A stretch of 36,322 nt of DNA, from positions 1-36,322 of the IMG/VR virus record IMGVR_UViG_3300044655_000522. One strand, 5' to 3'. Each line of letters opens with the position of its first letter. Within the stretch, counting starts at the first letter, position 1. This document shows positions 1,908-31,369 of the stretch, piece after piece. This stretch comes from a virus. Made by a program: the position numbers and the translations under genes. The notes under the pieces were generated by a model. That model was not told the DNA's origin. It saw nothing but the letters and a program-made list of their open reading frames with translations, and did no database searches.

Positions 1908-2531
1908 TTACAGCCATTTAAGTGATTTTAATTGACTATATGTTTCCGACACTTCATTTAGAAAAGCAATTACATCCTTTTCCGCTTGTTGCAACCATTC
2001 ATCATCGCGTGGCACGCGAACAATAAACAATTCCAAATCTTCACCCACATCGGGGCAGTAGGACACAAAGTCCACAAATTTATAAGCATCGCCTAGACAA
2101 GCCATTTGCCATTGCATTTGTGCAAAGTATTGGCTTGGGGCTGTTCCGCGCAATACAGTTTCAATGTGATTAGCAGGCGTAGGACATTTGATTTCAATAC
2201 TGCCGCCATCAACTAACCCATCGGGGCTTGCGCCTGCCATTTCAATGGTTGGATGTTGAACAAAGCCAACTTCATCAACCATGACACCTTTTTTTAGTTC
2301 ATAAGAAGCGCGTGCAAGCGGTTCTAACGCATTTCCGCGTTCCATGTGGGCGTTGGTATAGGTTTCGGCTTTGCGCCCCGTCAAGCGTTCGCAAACTAGT
2401 TGCATACGGTAGTTGCGGCGCGTTACTGCTTCACCTGTTTTAACGGTGGCTAATACATCGGCTAATCGGCTTGCGCTGACTTTGCCTAATCGGGCGGCAA
2501 ACCATTCATCTGAACCTTGGATTTCGTTCAT
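1908..2531 (-). CDS. YqaJ-family (lambda-type) 5'-3' exonuclease
   Basis: 207 residues, matching the YqaJ/lambda exonuclease family that resects duplex ends for phage recombination. Seen: the N-terminal GSDEWFAARLGKVSAS motif, a helical segment ending with a conserved Glu (E70 in GNALEPLA), then D104 in ASPDGLVD and the E113-I-K115 pair in SIEIKCP, giving a PD-(D/E)XK metal site. The start overlaps the previous stop by ATGA and its shine-dalgarno lies inside the last codons of that gene. It works with the DUF1071-type annealing protein encoded two genes upstream. Confidence 0.9.
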   Translation of the reverse strand: MNEIQGSDEWFAARLGKVSASRLADVLATVKTGEAVTRRNYRMQLVCERLTGRKAETYTNAHMERGNALEPLARASYELKKGVMVDEVGFVQHPTIEMAGASPDGLVDGGSIEIKCPTPANHIETVLRGTAPSQYFAQMQWQMACLGDAYKFVDFVSYCPDVGEDLELFIVRVPRDDEWLQQAEKDVIAFLNEVSETYSQLKSLKWL

Positions 2532-2809
2532 TCTGTTTCCTTTATTTTTTCCGCAATTTCCTTATCAACCATTATTCCAAGTTCAGCATCAATGGCATCA
2601 TCTAAATCTTTTCCATTTTTAACTTCAGCCGTTCCATCGCCTTTGGCGTAATAGATAGATTCAAAGCCAACATATTTATCCCATTCATAATTTTCATCAT
2701 CATTTAGAATTTCATTGATGATTGCAGGAACAACATCGCGCAGAAAACGGTATCGCACAGCATCGGCAATTAACAGTTGCATTTCAGAATCGGGTAATTG
2801 TTCAGTCAT
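2528..2809 (-). CDS. Hypothetical acidic protein, 93 aa
   Basis: The start at 2809 is preceded by AAAAAAGGAAACAAA, the operon's usual initiation sequence; a longer in-frame start at 2872 would run through the upstream small gene. The protein is acidic and helical. Its DAVRYRFLRDVV segment is a pattern often seen in small phage proteins placed near recombination genes. The rest is unrecognised. It overlaps both neighbours by ATGA and sits between annealing protein and exonuclease, so a role in recombination is possible but unproven. Confidence 0.7.
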   Translation of the reverse strand: MTEQLPDSEMQLLIADAVRYRFLRDVVPAIINEILNDDENYEWDKYVGFESIYYAKGDGTAEVKNGKDLDDAIDAELGIMVDKEIAEKIKETE

Positions 2810-2949
2810 TTTGTTTCCTTTTTTTGTATTGGTTTGGCAAGCAAGTATTTGTCGCCCATCATTTGTTTGCACTTTGCAATTTGCTTTTCGCGCAATTCAA
2901 CTAGATGTTGGCTTGGTGGTGGCAATTTATAAAGGCAATCAATAATCAT
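2806..2949 (-). CDS. Small hypothetical protein, 47 aa
   Basis: A 47-codon frame that starts by ATGA overlap with the stop of the annealing-protein gene (2946-2949) and ends by ATGA overlap with the next start (2806-2809). It has a PPPSQHLVELREKQIAKCKQ segment, probably a short helix with basic face. Its final codons (KKETK) carry the shine-dalgarno of the next gene. No family recognised; the double coupling is the evidence. Confidence 0.6.
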   Translation of the reverse strand: MIIDCLYKLPPPSQHLVELREKQIAKCKQMMGDKYLLAKPIQKKETK

Positions 2950-3470
2950 TGGGCATCCTTTGTAAGTTTGGCTTTCATTAGGTCTTTAGTCCTGGTGATA
3001 ACAGCAAGCAATTCAGCGTCAGTTTTAAAGATTGGAACAATACGCAGATAGGCTTTTTGCAGTTCATCTAAGGTGGTGCAGGCAATTAGTTCTTCCGTGT
3101 AATCTTCAACATCAATTTGCGGCAGTTCTTGACCTGCGAAAATATACAATCCAATTCCAAAGCACGCACAGCACTTGGCAAGGCATCGCATCGTAGCATC
3201 GGATATTTTACGGGCATCGGGGTTGGCAATAGCGTTGTTACGGTTATCCATGACAGGCAGTTGCATTTTCATGGTCTTGCCAAAGGCGGTAACATTGCAA
3301 AACACCATCATGGTTTCGCCATAGTATTTTGGTTCGGGGAAATCCCATGTTGCAGTTTCATCGGCTTGCAATAATTCATCAATTGCATAAGTCCAAGAAA
3401 GGTAAGTTAGATTGCCTTTCTTTTCGGTTCTGTCATTAACATTCAATTTTCTTAATTTTGCGTAACTCAT
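2946..3470 (-). CDS. DUF1071-type single-strand annealing recombinase
   Basis: 174 residues. The opening (LRKLNVNDRTEKKGNLTYLSW followed by AIDELLQ) is the signature of DUF1071 proteins, a group linked to phage single-strand annealing proteins (SSAPs). A middle strand region (MMVFCNVTAFG) and the helical ISDATMRCLAKCCACFGIGLYIF segment also fit. It would anneal the 3' strands made by the YqaJ exonuclease encoded downstream. Start: AAAGGA ahead of ATG at 3470. The C-terminal 50 residues are a separate helical tail, as is common in SSAPs. Confidence 0.8.
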   Translation of the reverse strand: MSYAKLRKLNVNDRTEKKGNLTYLSWTYAIDELLQADETATWDFPEPKYYGETMMVFCNVTAFGKTMKMQLPVMDNRNNAIANPDARKISDATMRCLAKCCACFGIGLYIFAGQELPQIDVEDYTEELIACTTLDELQKAYLRIVPIFKTDAELLAVITRTKDLMKAKLTKDAQ

Positions 3471-12501: not shown

Positions 12502-13911
12502 ATGGCAATTCTAGATATATTCAAAAGAAAACCGCAGAAAAACGCCAACGAAAGCAATACGCTTTTTGGGCAAACAGCCCTTGGTAATAACATCATTCGC
12601 AATGCAGGTGCGACACAATACGCATCATCTAGCCAATTATTATATGTAACAACATCAAGCGCAAACGAAGCAGGTCGTTTGGTGGATATGTCGGTTTTAA
12701 GCCGCAATTCAACCATAATGTCATGCGTAGGCGTTAAAGCCCGTGCATTAGCGCAATTACCAATCAAAATTATGGCAACAACCGATGATGGTTCATTAGT
12801 TGATGCTTGTTTAAGCAATAAAGTGTCTGCGCGTGATAAGGCAAAAGCCAAATCCGTTCTTGCATTATTGCAAGCACCTAACAACTTTCAAAGCCAATAC
12901 GAATTTTGGTATCAATTCTGTATGTGGTTGGATTTATCGGGCGAAGTCTTTACCGTTCTATGGCGTAAAGACCAAGATAACAGCCAACAAACGCCGCTTG
13001 AAATGTATGTGTTGGATTCAACGCTTATTAGCGCAACAATAACCCCAACACGATACCCAACTTACAGGCTATCAACACCATCATACGGTTTCAGCAAAGA
13101 TGCGCCATTGCAAGCCCATCAAGTTATGCACCTAAAGGAAGCGGCATGGCAAGGTTCGGCAGGTTTTAACAAAGGCATATTAGCCGTTGAATTAGTGTCG
13201 CTTGACCAAGACATTGACCTTTATGCCAACTTTATAATGACAAATGGCGCGAAGCCAAGTGGAATGTTTGTTACAGACCAAGTTATTCCCGACACAAAAT
13301 ACAAGGAAATAGCGGCAAGGCTTAAAGAAGCGTGGTCAAGCATGACAGGTTCACGCCCAACAGACCTAAGTAAGCCCGGTCAATCCATGTTGCTTGATAA
13401 TGGCATGAAATACTTGCCAATTGATATGCTTAACCTGCAAGACGCTGATTGCGCCAACCTTAAAATGCAAACAATGAAACGAATTTGCGGTTTGTTTGGT
13501 GTTCCTGTTGCAATGCTATCTATTGAAGATGGCAAATTTAACAACAGCCAAACAATGCTTGATGAATTTTACAAATCAACAATTTTCCCGATGTTGGTAA
13601 ACATTCAACAAAAACTGAAACAAAGTTTGTTGCAAGGTTATCCAAATCTATGCGTTGAATTTCAAACAGAATCGTTTTTAAACGGTGCGCCGCTTGACCA
13701 AATGAATTATGTGGTAGCAGGTGTCAATAACGGTATATTAACGCCTAATGAAGCGCGTAAATACCTTGGCAGGGCTGAAATTGAGGGCGCAAACGCATTA
13801 AAAGACACAGGTAAACCAACAGGAACAATTGCAGGTAGTTCGCCACAAGATACTGGCGGCGGCGGCAATACATCTAGCGTTGGCAAAACTGGTCAAGCAG
13901 GTAAAGCATAA
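12502..13911 (+). CDS. Portal protein, HK97 family
   Basis: 469 residues. The opening MAILDIFKRKPQKN, the middle GFNKGILAVE and NGAKPSGMF segments, and the FGVPVAMLSIEDGKFNNSQTMLDEFYKSTI region are typical of HK97-type portals, which form the dodecameric channel at one vertex. The end is a Gly/Ser-rich disordered tail. Start after AAAGGATTAAC. The stop overlaps by one base the start of a small gene not usually found here. Confidence 0.9.
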   Translation: MAILDIFKRKPQKNANESNTLFGQTALGNNIIRNAGATQYASSSQLLYVTTSSANEAGRLVDMSVLSRNSTIMSCVGVKARALAQLPIKIMATTDDGSLVDACLSNKVSARDKAKAKSVLALLQAPNNFQSQYEFWYQFCMWLDLSGEVFTVLWRKDQDNSQQTPLEMYVLDSTLISATITPTRYPTYRLSTPSYGFSKDAPLQAHQVMHLKEAAWQGSAGFNKGILAVELVSLDQDIDLYANFIMTNGAKPSGMFVTDQVIPDTKYKEIAARLKEAWSSMTGSRPTDLSKPGQSMLLDNGMKYLPIDMLNLQDADCANLKMQTMKRICGLFGVPVAMLSIEDGKFNNSQTMLDEFYKSTIFPMLVNIQQKLKQSLLQGYPNLCVEFQTESFLNGAPLDQMNYVVAGVNNGILTPNEARKYLGRAEIEGANALKDTGKPTGTIAGSSPQDTGGGGNTSSVGKTGQAGKA

Positions 13912-14045
13912 TGACAAAAAAAGAGTTGAAAGAATTAAGATTATTATTATTAACCGTTCAAATGAAACAAGCGGCAGACAAGCGCGTTACAATGCCGTTT
14001 AAAACAAACGGTATGAAAAACAAAGGGGTTATTATTCATGGCTAA
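13911..14045 (+). CDS. Small basic protein between portal and protease, 44 aa
   Basis: A 44-codon frame starting in a TAATG overlap with the portal stop and ending 8 bases inside the protease gene. The peptide is basic (KKELKELRLLLL at the start, KRVTMPFKTNGMKNKG later). No family recognised; could be a translational bridge that couples portal to protease. Evidence is limited to the tight fit between neighbours. Confidence 0.45.
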   Translation: MTKKELKELRLLLLTVQMKQAADKRVTMPFKTNGMKNKGVIIHG

Positions 14046-14838
14046 AGATGTTAAGTTTTTTTATGAAAGCGAAGTTGCTTTAGGCGTGAGTGCCGATGAA
14101 GCCGAAATGTGCGGAACGATTGAAGCCGTTTTGACAACATGGGGCGCACGCGAGGGCGCAGACGGTAGGCGTTTTAACTATCAACCTGAAGCGTTTAAAG
14201 AATGGGCGGCAGGTTACGCTGAAATGGGCAAACCTTTGCCAATGTATTTCCAACACAACGATGAATCTTTGCCTGTTGGTGAGTGGACTATGTTTGAATT
14301 TGATGATGTAGGCATGACGGGCAAAGGTCGCTTGTTTACCAATACAACTATTGGCAAAGACCTATATACAATTATGAAAGAATCACCAAACATGGTTGGT
14401 GGTGTTTCAGTTGGTGCATACGCCGATGAATATCAAATGGTAAACGCTAATAACGAAGTTATGAACCCACAAGACCCTGCTTATGATGAGGGTTATTTCC
14501 AAATCACTAAAGGTGGTTTGCGCGAAGTGTCAATTGTTATGCACCCAAACAACCCTGAAGCCAATATAAACAAACTTGAAAATGTTTATCGTGCTGACGG
14601 AACAATTAACCTAAAAGAAGTAGAATCTGTCTTGCGTGATGCAGGATTGACAAAGATGCACGCAACCGCCGCATCTAGCATTTTCAACAAAGTAATTAAA
14701 CTGCGTGATGCAGGTAATGAAACCGTTGAAACGCCACCAAATTTGAGTGAATCAGACGCGGCGGTTAATCAAGCGATTCTAGCCGAATTAAACAAGCGTG
14801 AATTGCTTAAACAACTTAATAAACGAATTAAAGGATAA
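14038..14838 (+). CDS. Prohead serine protease (HK97-type, S78-like)
   Basis: 266 residues. Protease domain at about 20-165: H73 in YFQHNDESLPVG, S124 in GGVSVGAYAD, and the closing LREVSIVMHPNNPEA motif, which are the landmarks of HK97-type prohead proteases. It cleaves capsid scaffolding domains during maturation. The C-terminal 80 residues (Glu/Lys-rich) are likely a capsid-interaction or self-cleaved tail. Shine-dalgarno AAAGGGG upstream. Lies directly before the capsid gene that carries the cleavable N-terminal domain. Confidence 0.9.
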   Translation: MAKDVKFFYESEVALGVSADEAEMCGTIEAVLTTWGAREGADGRRFNYQPEAFKEWAAGYAEMGKPLPMYFQHNDESLPVGEWTMFEFDDVGMTGKGRLFTNTTIGKDLYTIMKESPNMVGGVSVGAYADEYQMVNANNEVMNPQDPAYDEGYFQITKGGLREVSIVMHPNNPEANINKLENVYRADGTINLKEVESVLRDAGLTKMHATAASSIFNKVIKLRDAGNETVETPPNLSESDAAVNQAILAELNKRELLKQLNKRIKG

Positions 14839-14841
14839 ATC

Positions 14842-16191
14842 ATGTCAGTTGAAATAATTGAAAAATTAGATGCGATTGAAGCAAATAACATTGCTGAAAT
14901 TGCAAAAGTTACTGAATCAGTAACAGCAAAAGTGGATGCAGTTGAAGCATCTTTTTCTGAAAAAGTAGCGGCTTTAGAAGCAAAAGTGGCTTCTATTAAC
15001 CCTGCACCATCAATCATCAAAATTGAAAAAACAATCCGTGGTGATGTAAACAAAATGGTTAAAGAACAATTAGCCAAATTCCATAAAGGCGATGGTCGCG
15101 TTCAAACTGAATTAAAAATGTTTGAAGATGAAAGCCAATATGCGGCTTACATGAAAGAAGCGTCAGCACTAACAGGCGGCGGTAACAACCAAGGTGGTCG
15201 CACAGCCTATGACCCTGTATTTGCCGCATTGCGTCTTGCTAACCCTTTGCGTGGCATTTGCCGCACAGTAGCAACTGACGGTTCATCATATCAATTCCGT
15301 GTTAAAACAGGTAATGCAGGCGCACAATGGGGCTATGCAATTCAAAACAACGGCGCGGCAACAACTGAAGATACAAGCATTTGGCAAATCGTTCTAAAAG
15401 ATGTCAATGTTCAATTTCCAATCAGAACAGCCGCTTTGGATGACATTGATGGTTTAGAAGCCAATGTTGTTGATGATATGCTTGCCGAGTTTGCACAAAC
15501 TGAAGCGCAATCAATGATTTCAAACAACGACCAATCAGGTTCAGGCACAACAGTTGCAACTGGTGGTGCTGACGGCTTGCGCGGTTTAGACCAATATGCA
15601 GGTGCTAATTCAACTTACACAGGTGGCACAACATCAACAGCCGCTTTTGGTTCTTCAGGCACAGGTTCAGCAACAGGTTTACATTCACTTGCCACCTATG
15701 ACCAATTAACAACCAACGGCAATACTGTTGGCGCAAACAACATCGTTTATAAAGATGTAATTAACTTTATCTACGCTTTGCCACAACAATACTGGACAGA
15801 ATCAGCAAAATTTGTTGTTTCACCAATCTTGTTACAAGCAATCCGTGGTTTGGTAGATTCACAAGGTCGCCCAATTTATGTTGATGGTTTATCACGCAAC
15901 GATGGCATTGTTGGTTCATTGTTAGGTTTTGATGTTGTTGTTAATAAATACTTAGACACACCATCACAAACTGCAACAGGCGCGGCAGGCACAGTTAGCA
16001 AATATCCAATGTTCTTTGGTGATTGGGATAAGTTCTACACAATCATTGACCGTTTGAACATGGTATTACGCCGTTACGACCAAACATTGCCCGGCTTTAT
16101 CACTTTCTTTGGTGAAAAACGCTTGGCAACATCTGTTCGCGACCCATTTGCAGGTGTGCGTTACCGTTCTACTGGCACAGCAAACGCTTAA
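14842..16191 (+). CDS. Major capsid protein 1, HK97 fold, with N-terminal scaffolding (delta) domain
   Basis: 449 residues. Residues about 3-52 form a coiled coil (EIIEKLDAIEANNIAEIAK and repeats), followed by a linker: a delta-type domain that the protease should remove. The mature shell part starts near residue 107 (ASALTGGGNNQGGRT) and shows typical features: GGRT arm, IWQIVLKDVNVQFPIR strand, NDQSGS loop, and the end DQTLPGFITFFGEKRLATSVRDPFAGVRY. Strong start after AAAGGATAAATC. A transcription terminator directly follows, and the next gene is a full-length paralogue lacking the coiled coil. Confidence 0.93.
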   Translation: MSVEIIEKLDAIEANNIAEIAKVTESVTAKVDAVEASFSEKVAALEAKVASINPAPSIIKIEKTIRGDVNKMVKEQLAKFHKGDGRVQTELKMFEDESQYAAYMKEASALTGGGNNQGGRTAYDPVFAALRLANPLRGICRTVATDGSSYQFRVKTGNAGAQWGYAIQNNGAATTEDTSIWQIVLKDVNVQFPIRTAALDDIDGLEANVVDDMLAEFAQTEAQSMISNNDQSGSGTTVATGGADGLRGLDQYAGANSTYTGGTTSTAAFGSSGTGSATGLHSLATYDQLTTNGNTVGANNIVYKDVINFIYALPQQYWTESAKFVVSPILLQAIRGLVDSQGRPIYVDGLSRNDGIVGSLLGFDVVVNKYLDTPSQTATGAAGTVSKYPMFFGDWDKFYTIIDRLNMVLRRYDQTLPGFITFFGEKRLATSVRDPFAGVRYRSTGTANA

Positions 16192-16200
16192 TACGGGTTA

Positions 16201-16234
16201 GGGATGGTGGCAAAAGTTGCCATCCCTTTTTTTT
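16201..16234 (+). terminator. Intrinsic terminator after capsid gene 1
   Basis: GGGA and TGGCAA (16201-16213, with a 3-base bulge) pair with TTGCCA and TCCC (16217-16226) around a 3-base loop, followed by eight T (16227-16234). This is a good rho-independent terminator. Because essential genes continue downstream in the same direction, it must be leaky or followed by a new promoter; it would reduce message for the second capsid gene. Confidence 0.85.
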
Positions 16235-16253
16235 ACCTAAAGGACATACCAAA

Positions 16254-17291
16254 ATGAAAATCGCTGAAAGAGTTTTAGACGGCATTAAAACCGCCTTAAT
16301 TGATGGTGAAGCCACCGTTAATTTAAAAGTTGATGAAGCAAGCGCGATTACTGGAAGCGGTTCAAATGTTGGTGGTCGCACCTATTTTGACGATGCTTTT
16401 GCCGCCGCGCGTTATGCCAACCCATTTCGTATGGGCGCACGACAAATAACAGCAATGGAATCAGACATACAATTTGTTGCCAAAACTGGTAATGCCGCAG
16501 ATGCAACAGACCCTTGGGGTTACGCAGTTAATCCTAATAGCGGTTCACCTAATATAAACACAAGCATTTGGCAGTTGCCAATGCGTGCTATATCAGCGCA
16601 GTTGCCAATTCGTAGCGCAGTTTTAAGCGATGTAAACGGCTTGGAATTGGAAATTGTTGAAGATTTAGCCTTTGAATTTAGTCAAATTGAAGCCGCATCA
16701 ATGGCAGTTAATGATGACCAATCAGGTTCAACAACCACCGTAACAGGCGCAGAAAATGGCTTGCGTGGTTTGACATCTTATACAACTAGCACATCCGCCG
16801 CCGCATTTGGCACAAGTGGAACGGCTATTACTAACGGCATACACACAGTTTTGACCGTTGAAGCAAGCGTAACAACACCAACCTATGACAGCATTGCCAA
16901 TGTTGCAAGCGCGTTGCCTGCACAGTATTGGTCAATGCCAACAACAGCATGGCACATTCACCCAACTTTAATTGCATCTTTACGCAAATTAAAAAGTTCA
17001 ACAGGTGGTTCGCCAATGTTTATTGAAGCAGGTAATGAAGATGGTGCGGCAGTTGGTTTTATGTTTGGTTTCCCTGTTATCCCTAATCCTTATTTGGATG
17101 CACCTGCGGTTGGCGCAATCCCATTAGTATTAGCAAATTGGGATAGGTTCTTAACTATTGCCGATGCTGAAACAATGAACATCAAACGCTTTGACCAAAC
17201 GCAAGCAGGTTTTGTAACGATTTATGCTGAAATGCGTATGGCATCTTCTATTCGGGATGTATTTGCAGGCGTTTACTTGAAAGGCGTTTAA
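16254..17291 (+). CDS. Second major capsid protein, paralogue without scaffolding domain
   Basis: 345 residues, collinear with capsid protein 1 from its residue 29 to the end. Shared landmarks: ASAITGSGSNVGGRT (versus ASALTGGGNNQGGRT), the KTGNA loop, TSIWQLPMRAISAQLPIRSAVL, the NDDQSGS-TTT loop, ENGLRGL, the ALPAQYW motif, NWDRF, and the end DQTQAGFVTIYAEMRMASSIRDVFAGVYLKG. It lacks the 80-residue coiled coil; its N-terminus is a 28-residue arm (MKIAERVLDGIKTALIDGEA). It has its own shine-dalgarno (AAAGGA). Likely co-assembles with protein 1, perhaps at pentamers or other special positions. Confidence 0.9.
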   Translation: MKIAERVLDGIKTALIDGEATVNLKVDEASAITGSGSNVGGRTYFDDAFAAARYANPFRMGARQITAMESDIQFVAKTGNAADATDPWGYAVNPNSGSPNINTSIWQLPMRAISAQLPIRSAVLSDVNGLELEIVEDLAFEFSQIEAASMAVNDDQSGSTTTVTGAENGLRGLTSYTTSTSAAAFGTSGTAITNGIHTVLTVEASVTTPTYDSIANVASALPAQYWSMPTTAWHIHPTLIASLRKLKSSTGGSPMFIEAGNEDGAAVGFMFGFPVIPNPYLDAPAVGAIPLVLANWDRFLTIADAETMNIKRFDQTQAGFVTIYAEMRMASSIRDVFAGVYLKGV

Positions 17292-17293
17292 TT

Positions 17294-17944
17294 ATGGCGG
17301 TGAACAACATTAGCGGTGTAGTAAATCTTGCGCCAACGCGCAACCCATTTAACTATGATAAGGTTGTTCAAACAAGCCGCGATTTACAAACACAATGGCT
17401 AACACTTGATGAAATTACCAATCAATTAAACTTGTTTGGCGATGAATCACAAGATAGTTATTTAAGTGATTTAGAAGTTGCGGTGCGGATGCACATTGAA
17501 GATTATTTGGGCTTACCAATTTTTAATCAGTCTTATACTGTTTATTATGGCGCGTCTGCATTATACGGAACGCCATTAACATTGGATTTGCCTGAAGTTT
17601 CACAAAACGGCGTAACAATAAACAGCGTTAAGTATTATAGCGATGCAAGCCCACCTGTTTTAACAACAGTTGCGGCTAATACATATTTTTATGATGTTAC
17701 AGGTAACAAAGTCATTTTAAATGATTTGCCAACTGACCTTAATACATTTATGACATCGCCTGTTGTTTGTAATTACACAATCAACTCAAGTATATTGGCG
17801 CAATATCCTGTTATTAAACAAGCAGGCTTGCTATTGCTTACACATCTATATAACAATAGAAGTGAAACAACAGCAGGGGCTTTGCAAAGAATACCGTTTG
17901 GGGTGGATGTATTGCTAAGGCAATATAAACCGCTTGTGATGTAA
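17294..17944 (+). CDS. Head-tail connector (gp6-like adaptor)
   Basis: 216 residues. The helical start (WLTLDEITNQLNLFGDES..., then LSDLEVAVRMHIEDYLGLPI) and the later region with QAGLLLLTHLYNNRS match phage gp6/phiE125 gp8-like connectors that sit below the portal. A beta insertion with tyrosines lies between. It follows the second capsid gene by 2 bases and precedes a head-closure gene. Confidence 0.8.
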   Translation: MAVNNISGVVNLAPTRNPFNYDKVVQTSRDLQTQWLTLDEITNQLNLFGDESQDSYLSDLEVAVRMHIEDYLGLPIFNQSYTVYYGASALYGTPLTLDLPEVSQNGVTINSVKYYSDASPPVLTTVAANTYFYDVTGNKVILNDLPTDLNTFMTSPVVCNYTINSSILAQYPVIKQAGLLLLTHLYNNRSETTAGALQRIPFGVDVLLRQYKPLVM

Positions 17945-30154: not shown

Positions 30155-31369
30155 ATGTCAAATACTATCAGAATCAAACGCCGCGCAAGTAGCGGTGGTG
30201 CAGGCGCACCAACATCATTGGAAAACGCTGAATTAGCATTTAACGAAGCATCCAATATACTTTATTATGGAACAGGCACGGGCGGCGTTGGCGGTTCAGC
30301 AACATCAATTATTGCAATTGGCGGTAATGGCGCATTTGTAGATACATCAACAACACAAACTGTTGGTGGCACTAAAACATTTAGCAATGCCATTGTTGGT
30401 TCTGTTACAGGTAATGCCGCCACAGCCACCGCATTAGCCACAGGGCGCACGATTGCAATTACAGGCGACATAGCCTACACAAGCCCATCGTTTGACGGTT
30501 CAAGCAATGTTACTGCAACAGGCACATTGGCAACAGTTAATAGCAATGTTGGCACTTACACCAAAATTACAATCAATGCTAAAGGTTTGGCAACAGCAGG
30601 TTCACAAGCAAGTTTAAGCGACCTATCAAGCCCAACGGCTGATTATGGTTTTGGTGGTTTTAAAATTACAAATCTTGCCGACCCTGCGGCGGCACAAGAC
30701 GCGGCAACTAAACAATATGTTGATAGCGTTGCACAAGGTTTAAATGTTAAAGCGGCTGTTATTGCAACAACAACTGGCAACATTACCCTTTCAGGCTTGG
30801 CAACACAAGCAGGCGGCGATTGGGCTTCATCATTGACAGCAGGCGACAGGGTTTTAGTTAAAAATCAAACAGCAAGCCAAAACAATGGTATTTATGTGGC
30901 TGATTCAAGCACATGGACACGCGCAACTGACGCTAACACATGGGCAGAATTGATTTCAGCCTTTACATTTGTTCAAACAGGTAGCACCGAAGCCGATACT
31001 GGTTGGGTTTGCACGGTTGATGCAGGCGGCACATTAGGCACAACGCCTATCACTTGGACACAATTTAGCGGCGCAGGCACTTATGATGCAGGCACAGGTT
31101 TAACGCTAACTGGCAACACTTTTAGCATTACCAATACTGCCGTTACCGCAGGTTCATACGGTTCTGCAAGCAACACATTGTCCGCAACCGTTAATGCCCA
31201 AGGTCAATTAACAGCGTTATCAGCACAAGCCATTGCAATTGCTAACACGCAAGTTAGTGGTCTTGGCACAATGTCCACGCAAGCGGCAAACAATGTGGCT
31301 ATTACAGGCGGTTCAATTACTAACTTGACCACCTTTGATGGCATTACTATTGACGGCGGCACATTCTAA
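30155..31369 (+). CDS. Tail fibre protein 1, 404 aa
   Basis: 404 residues. The N-terminus (NTIRIKRRASSGGAG, then LENAELAFNEASNILYYGTG) is the common KR-x-x-x-G-P...E-L-A-x-N fibre attachment module. The middle has TVGGTKTFSN, GNAATATALATGRTIAITGDI and the DPAAAQDAATKQYVDSVAQGL segment, all frequent in phage fibre shafts. The tail ends in a small beta repeat domain (TNLTTFDGITIDGGTF). Composed mainly of Thr, Ala, Gly and Ser. The same attachment module starts the next fibre gene. Confidence 0.8.
   Translation: MSNTIRIKRRASSGGAGAPTSLENAELAFNEASNILYYGTGTGGVGGSATSIIAIGGNGAFVDTSTTQTVGGTKTFSNAIVGSVTGNAATATALATGRTIAITGDIAYTSPSFDGSSNVTATGTLATVNSNVGTYTKITINAKGLATAGSQASLSDLSSPTADYGFGGFKITNLADPAAAQDAATKQYVDSVAQGLNVKAAVIATTTGNITLSGLATQAGGDWASSLTAGDRVLVKNQTASQNNGIYVADSSTWTRATDANTWAELISAFTFVQTGSTEADTGWVCTVDAGGTLGTTPITWTQFSGAGTYDAGTGLTLTGNTFSITNTAVTAGSYGSASNTLSATVNAQGQLTALSAQAIAIANTQVSGLGTMSTQAANNVAITGGSITNLTTFDGITIDGGTF

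Follow-up and report, generated by a model that had tools for sequence, protein, structure and literature searches.

Paired capsid genes in small freshwater phages: a second HK97-fold protein that may form pentons

A large set of small freshwater bacterial viruses carries two paralogous capsid genes in tandem, here called A and B. A encodes the major capsid protein with its scaffold domain. B probably encodes a second, minor HK97-fold subunit of the shell, most likely located at the 11 pentameric vertices, while A makes the hexamers; the chances of this reading are put slightly above even.

The DNA analysed, referred to as the window, is a complete IMG/VR virus record of 36,322 bases. The head module includes, in order, genes for TerL, the portal protein, a small ORF, the S78 protease, A, B, the connector Ad1, more connectors and tail proteins (Table 1). 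Genes of the module abut, except at the portal-protease and A-B junctions: the gaps measure 3 nt between protease and A and 2 nt between B and connector, against 63 nt between A and B. Both capsid ORFs lie where they had been predicted, each running from ATG to stop. The protease is expected to process A, and perhaps also B. The small ORF (44 aa, positions 13911-14045, plus strand) overlaps the stop of the portal gene and the start of the protease gene, and is unannotated in the cultured phage P19250A. Similar small ORFs were found in 45 of 100 relatives tested, at the position held by the helical Rcc01685 in RcGTA. Elsewhere in the window, a 404-aa protein (30155-31369, plus strand) features domains shared with 'head decoration' (phrog_2647, 3.8e-30) and tail fibre families, and could be a capsid spike or fibre. 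A YqaJ-like exonuclease and a Sak single-strand annealing protein make up a phage recombination module at 1908-3470 on the minus strand.

Table 1. Location of the capsid genes, their neighbours and the sequence elements discussed. Positions refer to the window unless preceded by a locus name; in motifs, a slash after E marks the putative cut.
Feature	Position	Strand	Basis
Portal protein	12502..13911	+	PF04860, 2.6e-57
Prohead protease (Peptidase_S78)	14038..14838	+	PF04586, 2.4e-10
Gene A (449 aa), major capsid protein carrying a scaffold (delta) domain at its N-terminus	14842..16191	+	PF05065, 1.4e-29; phrog_10
Predicted coiled-coil 'tower' of the A scaffold, residues 2-51	14845..14994	+	Single long helix in AF2 model; coiled-coil role assigned by its likeness to D3 (PMC12749128)
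A residues 103-114 (YMKEASALTGGG), putative prohead-protease site E106/A107	15148..15183	+	Conserved [LMIV]xE/[AS] motif; A-B homology begins here
Hairpin resembling an intrinsic terminator (12 pairs), with a T run, in the A-B gap	16200..16235	+	Folding; conserved in relatives
Gene B, second HK97-fold capsid protein, 345 aa, without coiled-coil scaffold	16254..17291	+	Pfam, phrog_10, AF2 model and Foldseek
Short propeptide of B (residues 1-28), similar to the PDAR (P-domain associated region) of D3/HK97	16254..16337	+	AF2 model: helix 3-17, strand 19-23
B residues 25-36 (KVDEASAITGSG), putative protease site E28/A29	16326..16361	+	Motif common to A
B axial (A) domain, about residues 156-292	16719..17129	+	A and B least identical here and with most of their indels; mosaic among relatives
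Head-tail connector (Ad1)	17294..17944	+	phrog_40, 1e-11; begins 2 nt after B
Fused-B loci	L184:4740-6074, L187:3857-5191, L189:5645-6979, L192:5854-7188, L264:5931-7253		

A and B are identical at 141 of 355 positions (40%, E = 6e-86, BLASTP) from A93/B15 to A442/B343, and strong similarity runs from EASAxTGxGxNxGGRT to D(P/V)FAGV. Both match the PF05065 Phage_capsid family (A 1.4e-29, 103.8 bits; B 3.8e-19, 69.6 bits) above its curated cut-off of 24.2 bits, as well as phrog_10, 'major head protein'. No other Pfam family was matched by B at E <= 0.01, and PHROG matches at the same threshold were confined to phrog_10 and phrog_15928. The closest solved relative of both proteins is the RcGTA capsid protein (A versus RcGTA MCP 6tb9, 8.5e-12 by profile). 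The AlphaFold2 model of B, built from 35 relatives (pLDDT 70, pTM 0.71), matches the capsid chains of RcGTA, HK97 and D3 (Foldseek, best E 9.2e-14, probability 1.00), and B is predicted to adopt the HK97 fold. The model of A is poor (pLDDT 50), and its fold is therefore assigned from sequence, by the match to the RcGTA MCP. Since capsid proteins of other phages gave partial matches to A at about 30%, A and B are mutual closest relatives within what was searched. The original prediction of duplicated, full-length HK97-fold capsid genes is thus borne out, the duplication by the 40% identity across the capsid domain and by the tree described below, the fold by model and sequence for B and by sequence for A.

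Relatives were gathered with four seeds, namely A, B, a divergent A, and the portal protein, which presupposes neither capsid gene. Loci were counted if they contained A plus at least 400 nt past it. They number 264, some of which overlap as parts of a single contig; without redundancy 132 remain. The pair looked for in related phages was found in 263 of the 264 loci as exactly one A and one B, and in none of the 264 was B missing after A. In the remaining locus (L123:6378-7371) B is split by an in-frame stop, which may be a sequencing error or denote a broken copy. The order portal-protease-A-B-connector is conserved among relatives, and genomes hosting the pair are about 36-39 kb in size. 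In a tree built from 64 proteins of each type, A and B form fully separate clades (support 100), which indicates that the pair stems from a single old duplication, both copies having been kept. Median dN/dS values, calculated from phage pairs with 85-98% portal identity, are 0.19 (B), 0.14 (A and connector alike), 0.17 (protease) and 0.08 (portal). B changes faster than A (mean identity 0.61 versus 0.71), and is, judging from substitution rates, plainly constrained by purifying selection. Loss of constraint in gene 2, with a rate near neutral, had been named beforehand as what would count against the division of labour; the data go the other way, dN/dS being about 0.19 and B being kept throughout. 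A special coevolution of A and B was also considered and set aside: the correlation of their distance matrices (mirror-tree, r 0.60) is unremarkable, lying below that of portal and protease (0.87), and none is visible. A scan of genome contigs retrieved five MAG contigs only, and because their taxonomy is mixed no host is assigned from them. The virus contig L160, which belongs to this bacterial phage group, sits in a MAG labelled Candidatus Nitrosotalea, an archaeon, probably by a binning error.

A has the features of a capsid protein with a fused delta domain, namely a helical extension of about 100 residues (helix 2-51, motif E106) and an S78 protease gene 3 nt upstream. B lacks such a domain, as 16-35 residues only are found ahead of the motif. 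The prediction that the first protein alone has an N-terminal coiled coil therefore holds. The motif [LMIV]-x-E/A-S-A-[LI]-T-G is present in both paralogues, and in A it marks the end of the scaffold. Its E is mostly found at residues 104-106 in A and at 16-35 in B, where 27 is the commonest position; the count includes, for both genes, a small number of upstream E residues that are artefacts of the regex, and leaves three rows unmatched. In sequence position the motif coincides with the cut site of HK97-type capsid proteins, and its [LI]-x-E/[AS] form resembles the preference shown by the T4 protease. We infer that both A and B are processed at this site. Within-phage co-variation of the motif between A and B (0.626) is barely above that of shuffled pairs (mean 0.598, maximum 0.636) and is given no weight. 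The 28-residue arm originally assigned to B corresponds to the first 28 residues of the protein; a short propeptide with the putative cleavage motif at its end describes them better than a mature N-arm.

In the model of B, pLDDT is 77-84 for residues 1-20 and below 50 for residues 27-45. The scaffold of phage D3 is composed of a coiled-coil tower and the PDAR, and the latter is made by a helix, a turn and a strand, followed by a flexible 24-residue N-arm which may expose the cleavage site (PMC12749128). A confident helix-strand followed by a low-confidence stretch is the same layout, so that B, as modelled, looks like a capsid protein in which the PDAR clamp has been kept or has re-evolved, and the tower is absent. 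In the original proposal B would use the scaffold of A to enter the prohead; B may dispense with a coiled coil of its own because this PDAR-like element is kept. Homology of B residues 1-27 to the second helix of the A scaffold seemed plausible by eye, and was rejected in a profile-profile comparison (E 0.39, probability 0.15%).

In five relatives from two lineages (L184, L187, L189 and L192; L264) the B frame is extended by about 100 residues. The added N-terminal domain corresponds to phrog_2859 (1.7e-26), which in Synechococcus phage S-CBS1 and Roseobacter phage CRP-406 begins the capsid protein. The fusions are probably two independent events, and a head-precursor domain joined to the N-terminus of B fits the notion that B is a prohead component.

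The A-B gap hosts a terminator-like hairpin. A strong stem was found at this junction in all of the 132 non-redundant relatives, followed in 72% by a stretch of 9 bases with 5 or more T; the quality of the T tract is uneven, 28% of relatives having fewer than 5. The hairpin is missing at control junctions, and the median folding z is -2.7 at A-B versus 0.8 and 0.0 at the neighbouring junctions. The sequence of the stem varies among relatives, and pairing persists. The A-B gap of one relative (L199) is 585 nt long and includes an ORF which, by eye, starts like a GIY-YIG endonuclease (FYTYIHFRKDSGVPFYIGKG); the hairpin is still there. Shine-Dalgarno matches of at least 5 nt were detected for 57% of A versus 13% of B genes, and the codon usage of B is not A-like and leans to that of other head genes. 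From hairpin, weaker SD and codon usage, the output of B should be well below that of A. A low amount is what a penton would need (at T=7, about 55 copies versus 360). Expression of the genes after B, and not of B alone, would be lowered just as much by the hairpin.

A and B diverge most in the axial domain, which surrounds the five- or six-fold axis at the centre of the capsomer. Identity between the A and B consensus sequences is 0.67 in the N-arm, 0.56 in the spine helix area, 0.47 in the E-loop and C-terminal strands, and 0.37-0.39 in the later axial segments; domain limits are approximate, having been drawn from the B model. All three of the larger internal indels (8, 9 and about 8 residues) are axial, with B the shorter protein each time. 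The axial domain also varies more than any other part within B, and to a lesser degree within A, which makes its divergence between A and B weak evidence for five-fold specialisation. The B protein of the window is 96% identical to that of locus L009 in residues 1-155 and 96% in residues 300-345; residues 190-292 are closest (92%) to L012, from which the protein is otherwise more distant. This mosaicism suggests an exchange of domains between lineages. It is found, in weaker form, in A as well, and was set aside as a trait specific to B. Some of the T4 mutations bypassing gp24 fall in the axial domain of gp23 (PMC9958956).

In phage T4, gp24 forms the pentons and loses 10 residues where gp23 loses 65, and a suggested trigger of the protease is its attachment to the vertices of the prohead (PMC9958956). 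A and B similarly are two HK97-fold paralogues in one phage, the second with a much shorter propeptide, and B is gp24-like in being a paralogue of the major capsid protein encoded in the same genome with a shorter propeptide. T4 is, however, a large, prolate myovirus whose core scaffold is a separate structure, and gp23 and gp24 are about 20% identical; A and B are 40% identical, are hosted by genomes of about 36-39 kb, and an HK97-type scaffold is fused to A. Neither A nor B matched the gp23/gp24 sequence family, the only matches at E <= 0.01 being to PF05065 in Pfam and to phrog_10 and phrog_15928 in PHROGs. The Ccm protein of SaPIbov5 is an HK97-fold homologue, 24% identical to the phi12 capsid protein, which has a shorter delta domain and is found in pentamers only; Ccm fills all of these, and phi12 CP the hexamers (PMC8569155). 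Ccm differs from B in being encoded by a satellite and redirecting the size of a helper capsid, whereas A and B are both phage genes, placed together in the head module and retained together in hundreds of relatives. HK97, D3 and RcGTA share with the window the HK97 fold and the order portal-S78 protease-MCP, but a single capsid protein makes pentons and hexons, and a second capsid gene is missing. The family 2B encapsulins of Streptomyces lydicus are likewise two HK97-fold shell proteins encoded together (PMC12407261), but they form cellular compartments of variable, irregular composition. The only high-identity match in 50,697 phage records is the cultured Methylophilaceae phage P19250A (KX815270), which has the same pair in the same order and with the same neighbours (A 64%, B 65% identical). 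In this record gp5 is annotated as 'gene transfer agent capsid protein' and gp6 as 'hypothetical protein'; the pair appears to have gone unrecognised.

As both HK97-fold paralogues that we found documented in a phage-type shell, gp24 and Ccm, fill pentamers and have shorter N-terminal extensions than the proteins of the hexamers, B is most likely a penton protein, added to a shell of A and cut by the protease that cuts A. The comparison to gp23/gp24 made at the outset is strengthened by the conserved hairpin, the short propeptide of B and the Ccm precedent, and the proposed division of labour between A and B by the universal retention and purifying selection of B. To our knowledge most HK97-type capsids need no dedicated penton protein, which counts against this reading.

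Other roles may be envisaged for B. A and B might co-assemble without fixed positions, in mixed hexamers or in variable shells, B tuning size or stability; this is unlikely, though both proteins keep full HK97 domains with similar E-loop and P-domain, and the two-component encapsulins of S. lydicus form mixed shells with irregular tiling (PMC12407261). The hairpin and the weaker SD of B point to unequal output, B has no coiled coil to bundle with those of A inside one capsomer, and both phage-type precedents are penton-specific. Rather improbable is that B, instead of being a general penton, sits at one particular vertex or in special hexamers, such as those surrounding the portal, or determines the size of the shell. 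B is close-coupled to the connector gene (2-nt gap) and lies downstream of the hairpin, but gene order alone is weak, and we know of no HK97-fold paralogue specific to the portal vertex. Capsid proteins adjacent to the portal do contact it specifically in JBD30 (PMC11445458), and Ccm alters capsid shape (PMC8569155). An even slimmer chance is given to B as an assembly or maturation factor, absent from the virion or there in traces: the low predicted output would agree, but a full shell domain, with a putative cleavage motif at the mature N-terminus, suggests that B stays in the shell, and E-loop and P-domain are strongly conserved in it. The copy split by a stop in L123 notwithstanding, it is nearly inconceivable that B is a recent or decaying duplicate devoid of function, a reading already refuted by an old duplication, the absence of loss in 264 loci and a dN/dS of about 0.19.

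After duplication of the capsid gene in the ancestor of this siphophage group, B would, as a penton protein, have taken over a special position of the lattice. A would assemble on its own coiled-coil scaffold; B, made in lower amounts downstream of the hairpin, would join the prohead by means of its short PDAR-like helix-strand only. The S78 protease would then cut both at the common E/A-S motif, so that A loses about 106 residues and B about 28, and the differentiated axial domain would let B close five-fold rings. Presence of B in the virion, copy number, position, cleavage and order of assembly are what we infer from these data. In its fullest form, to which an even chance is assigned, the proposal is that a lineage of siphophages of about 37 kb has an obligate penton protein of its own, derived from a duplicated scaffold-fused capsid protein and reduced to the capsid domain and a PDAR clamp without tower; that a terminator-like hairpin sets the hexon:penton ratio; and that in some members the penton protein has gained the N-terminal domain of capsid proteins of other phages.

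Specialised penton proteins have so far been documented in T4 and in the satellite that hijacks phi12. No phages with paired capsid genes besides T4 and the SaPI case were found in the open-access literature and, as far as this literature goes, a native paired capsid protein of this kind has not been reported in a small siphophage. The analysis corrects the label 'hypothetical protein' for hundreds of environmental genomes and for a phage in culture whose host is an abundant methylotroph of fresh water; this cultured relative, P19250A, makes the role of B testable. If the proposal is true, a native penton protein in a small HK97-type phage would bring hexon-penton specialisation into the simplest well-studied capsid system. 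Natural sequences would separate the roles of coiled-coil tower and PDAR, and would offer a tractable way to test why a single protein serves both positions in most phages.
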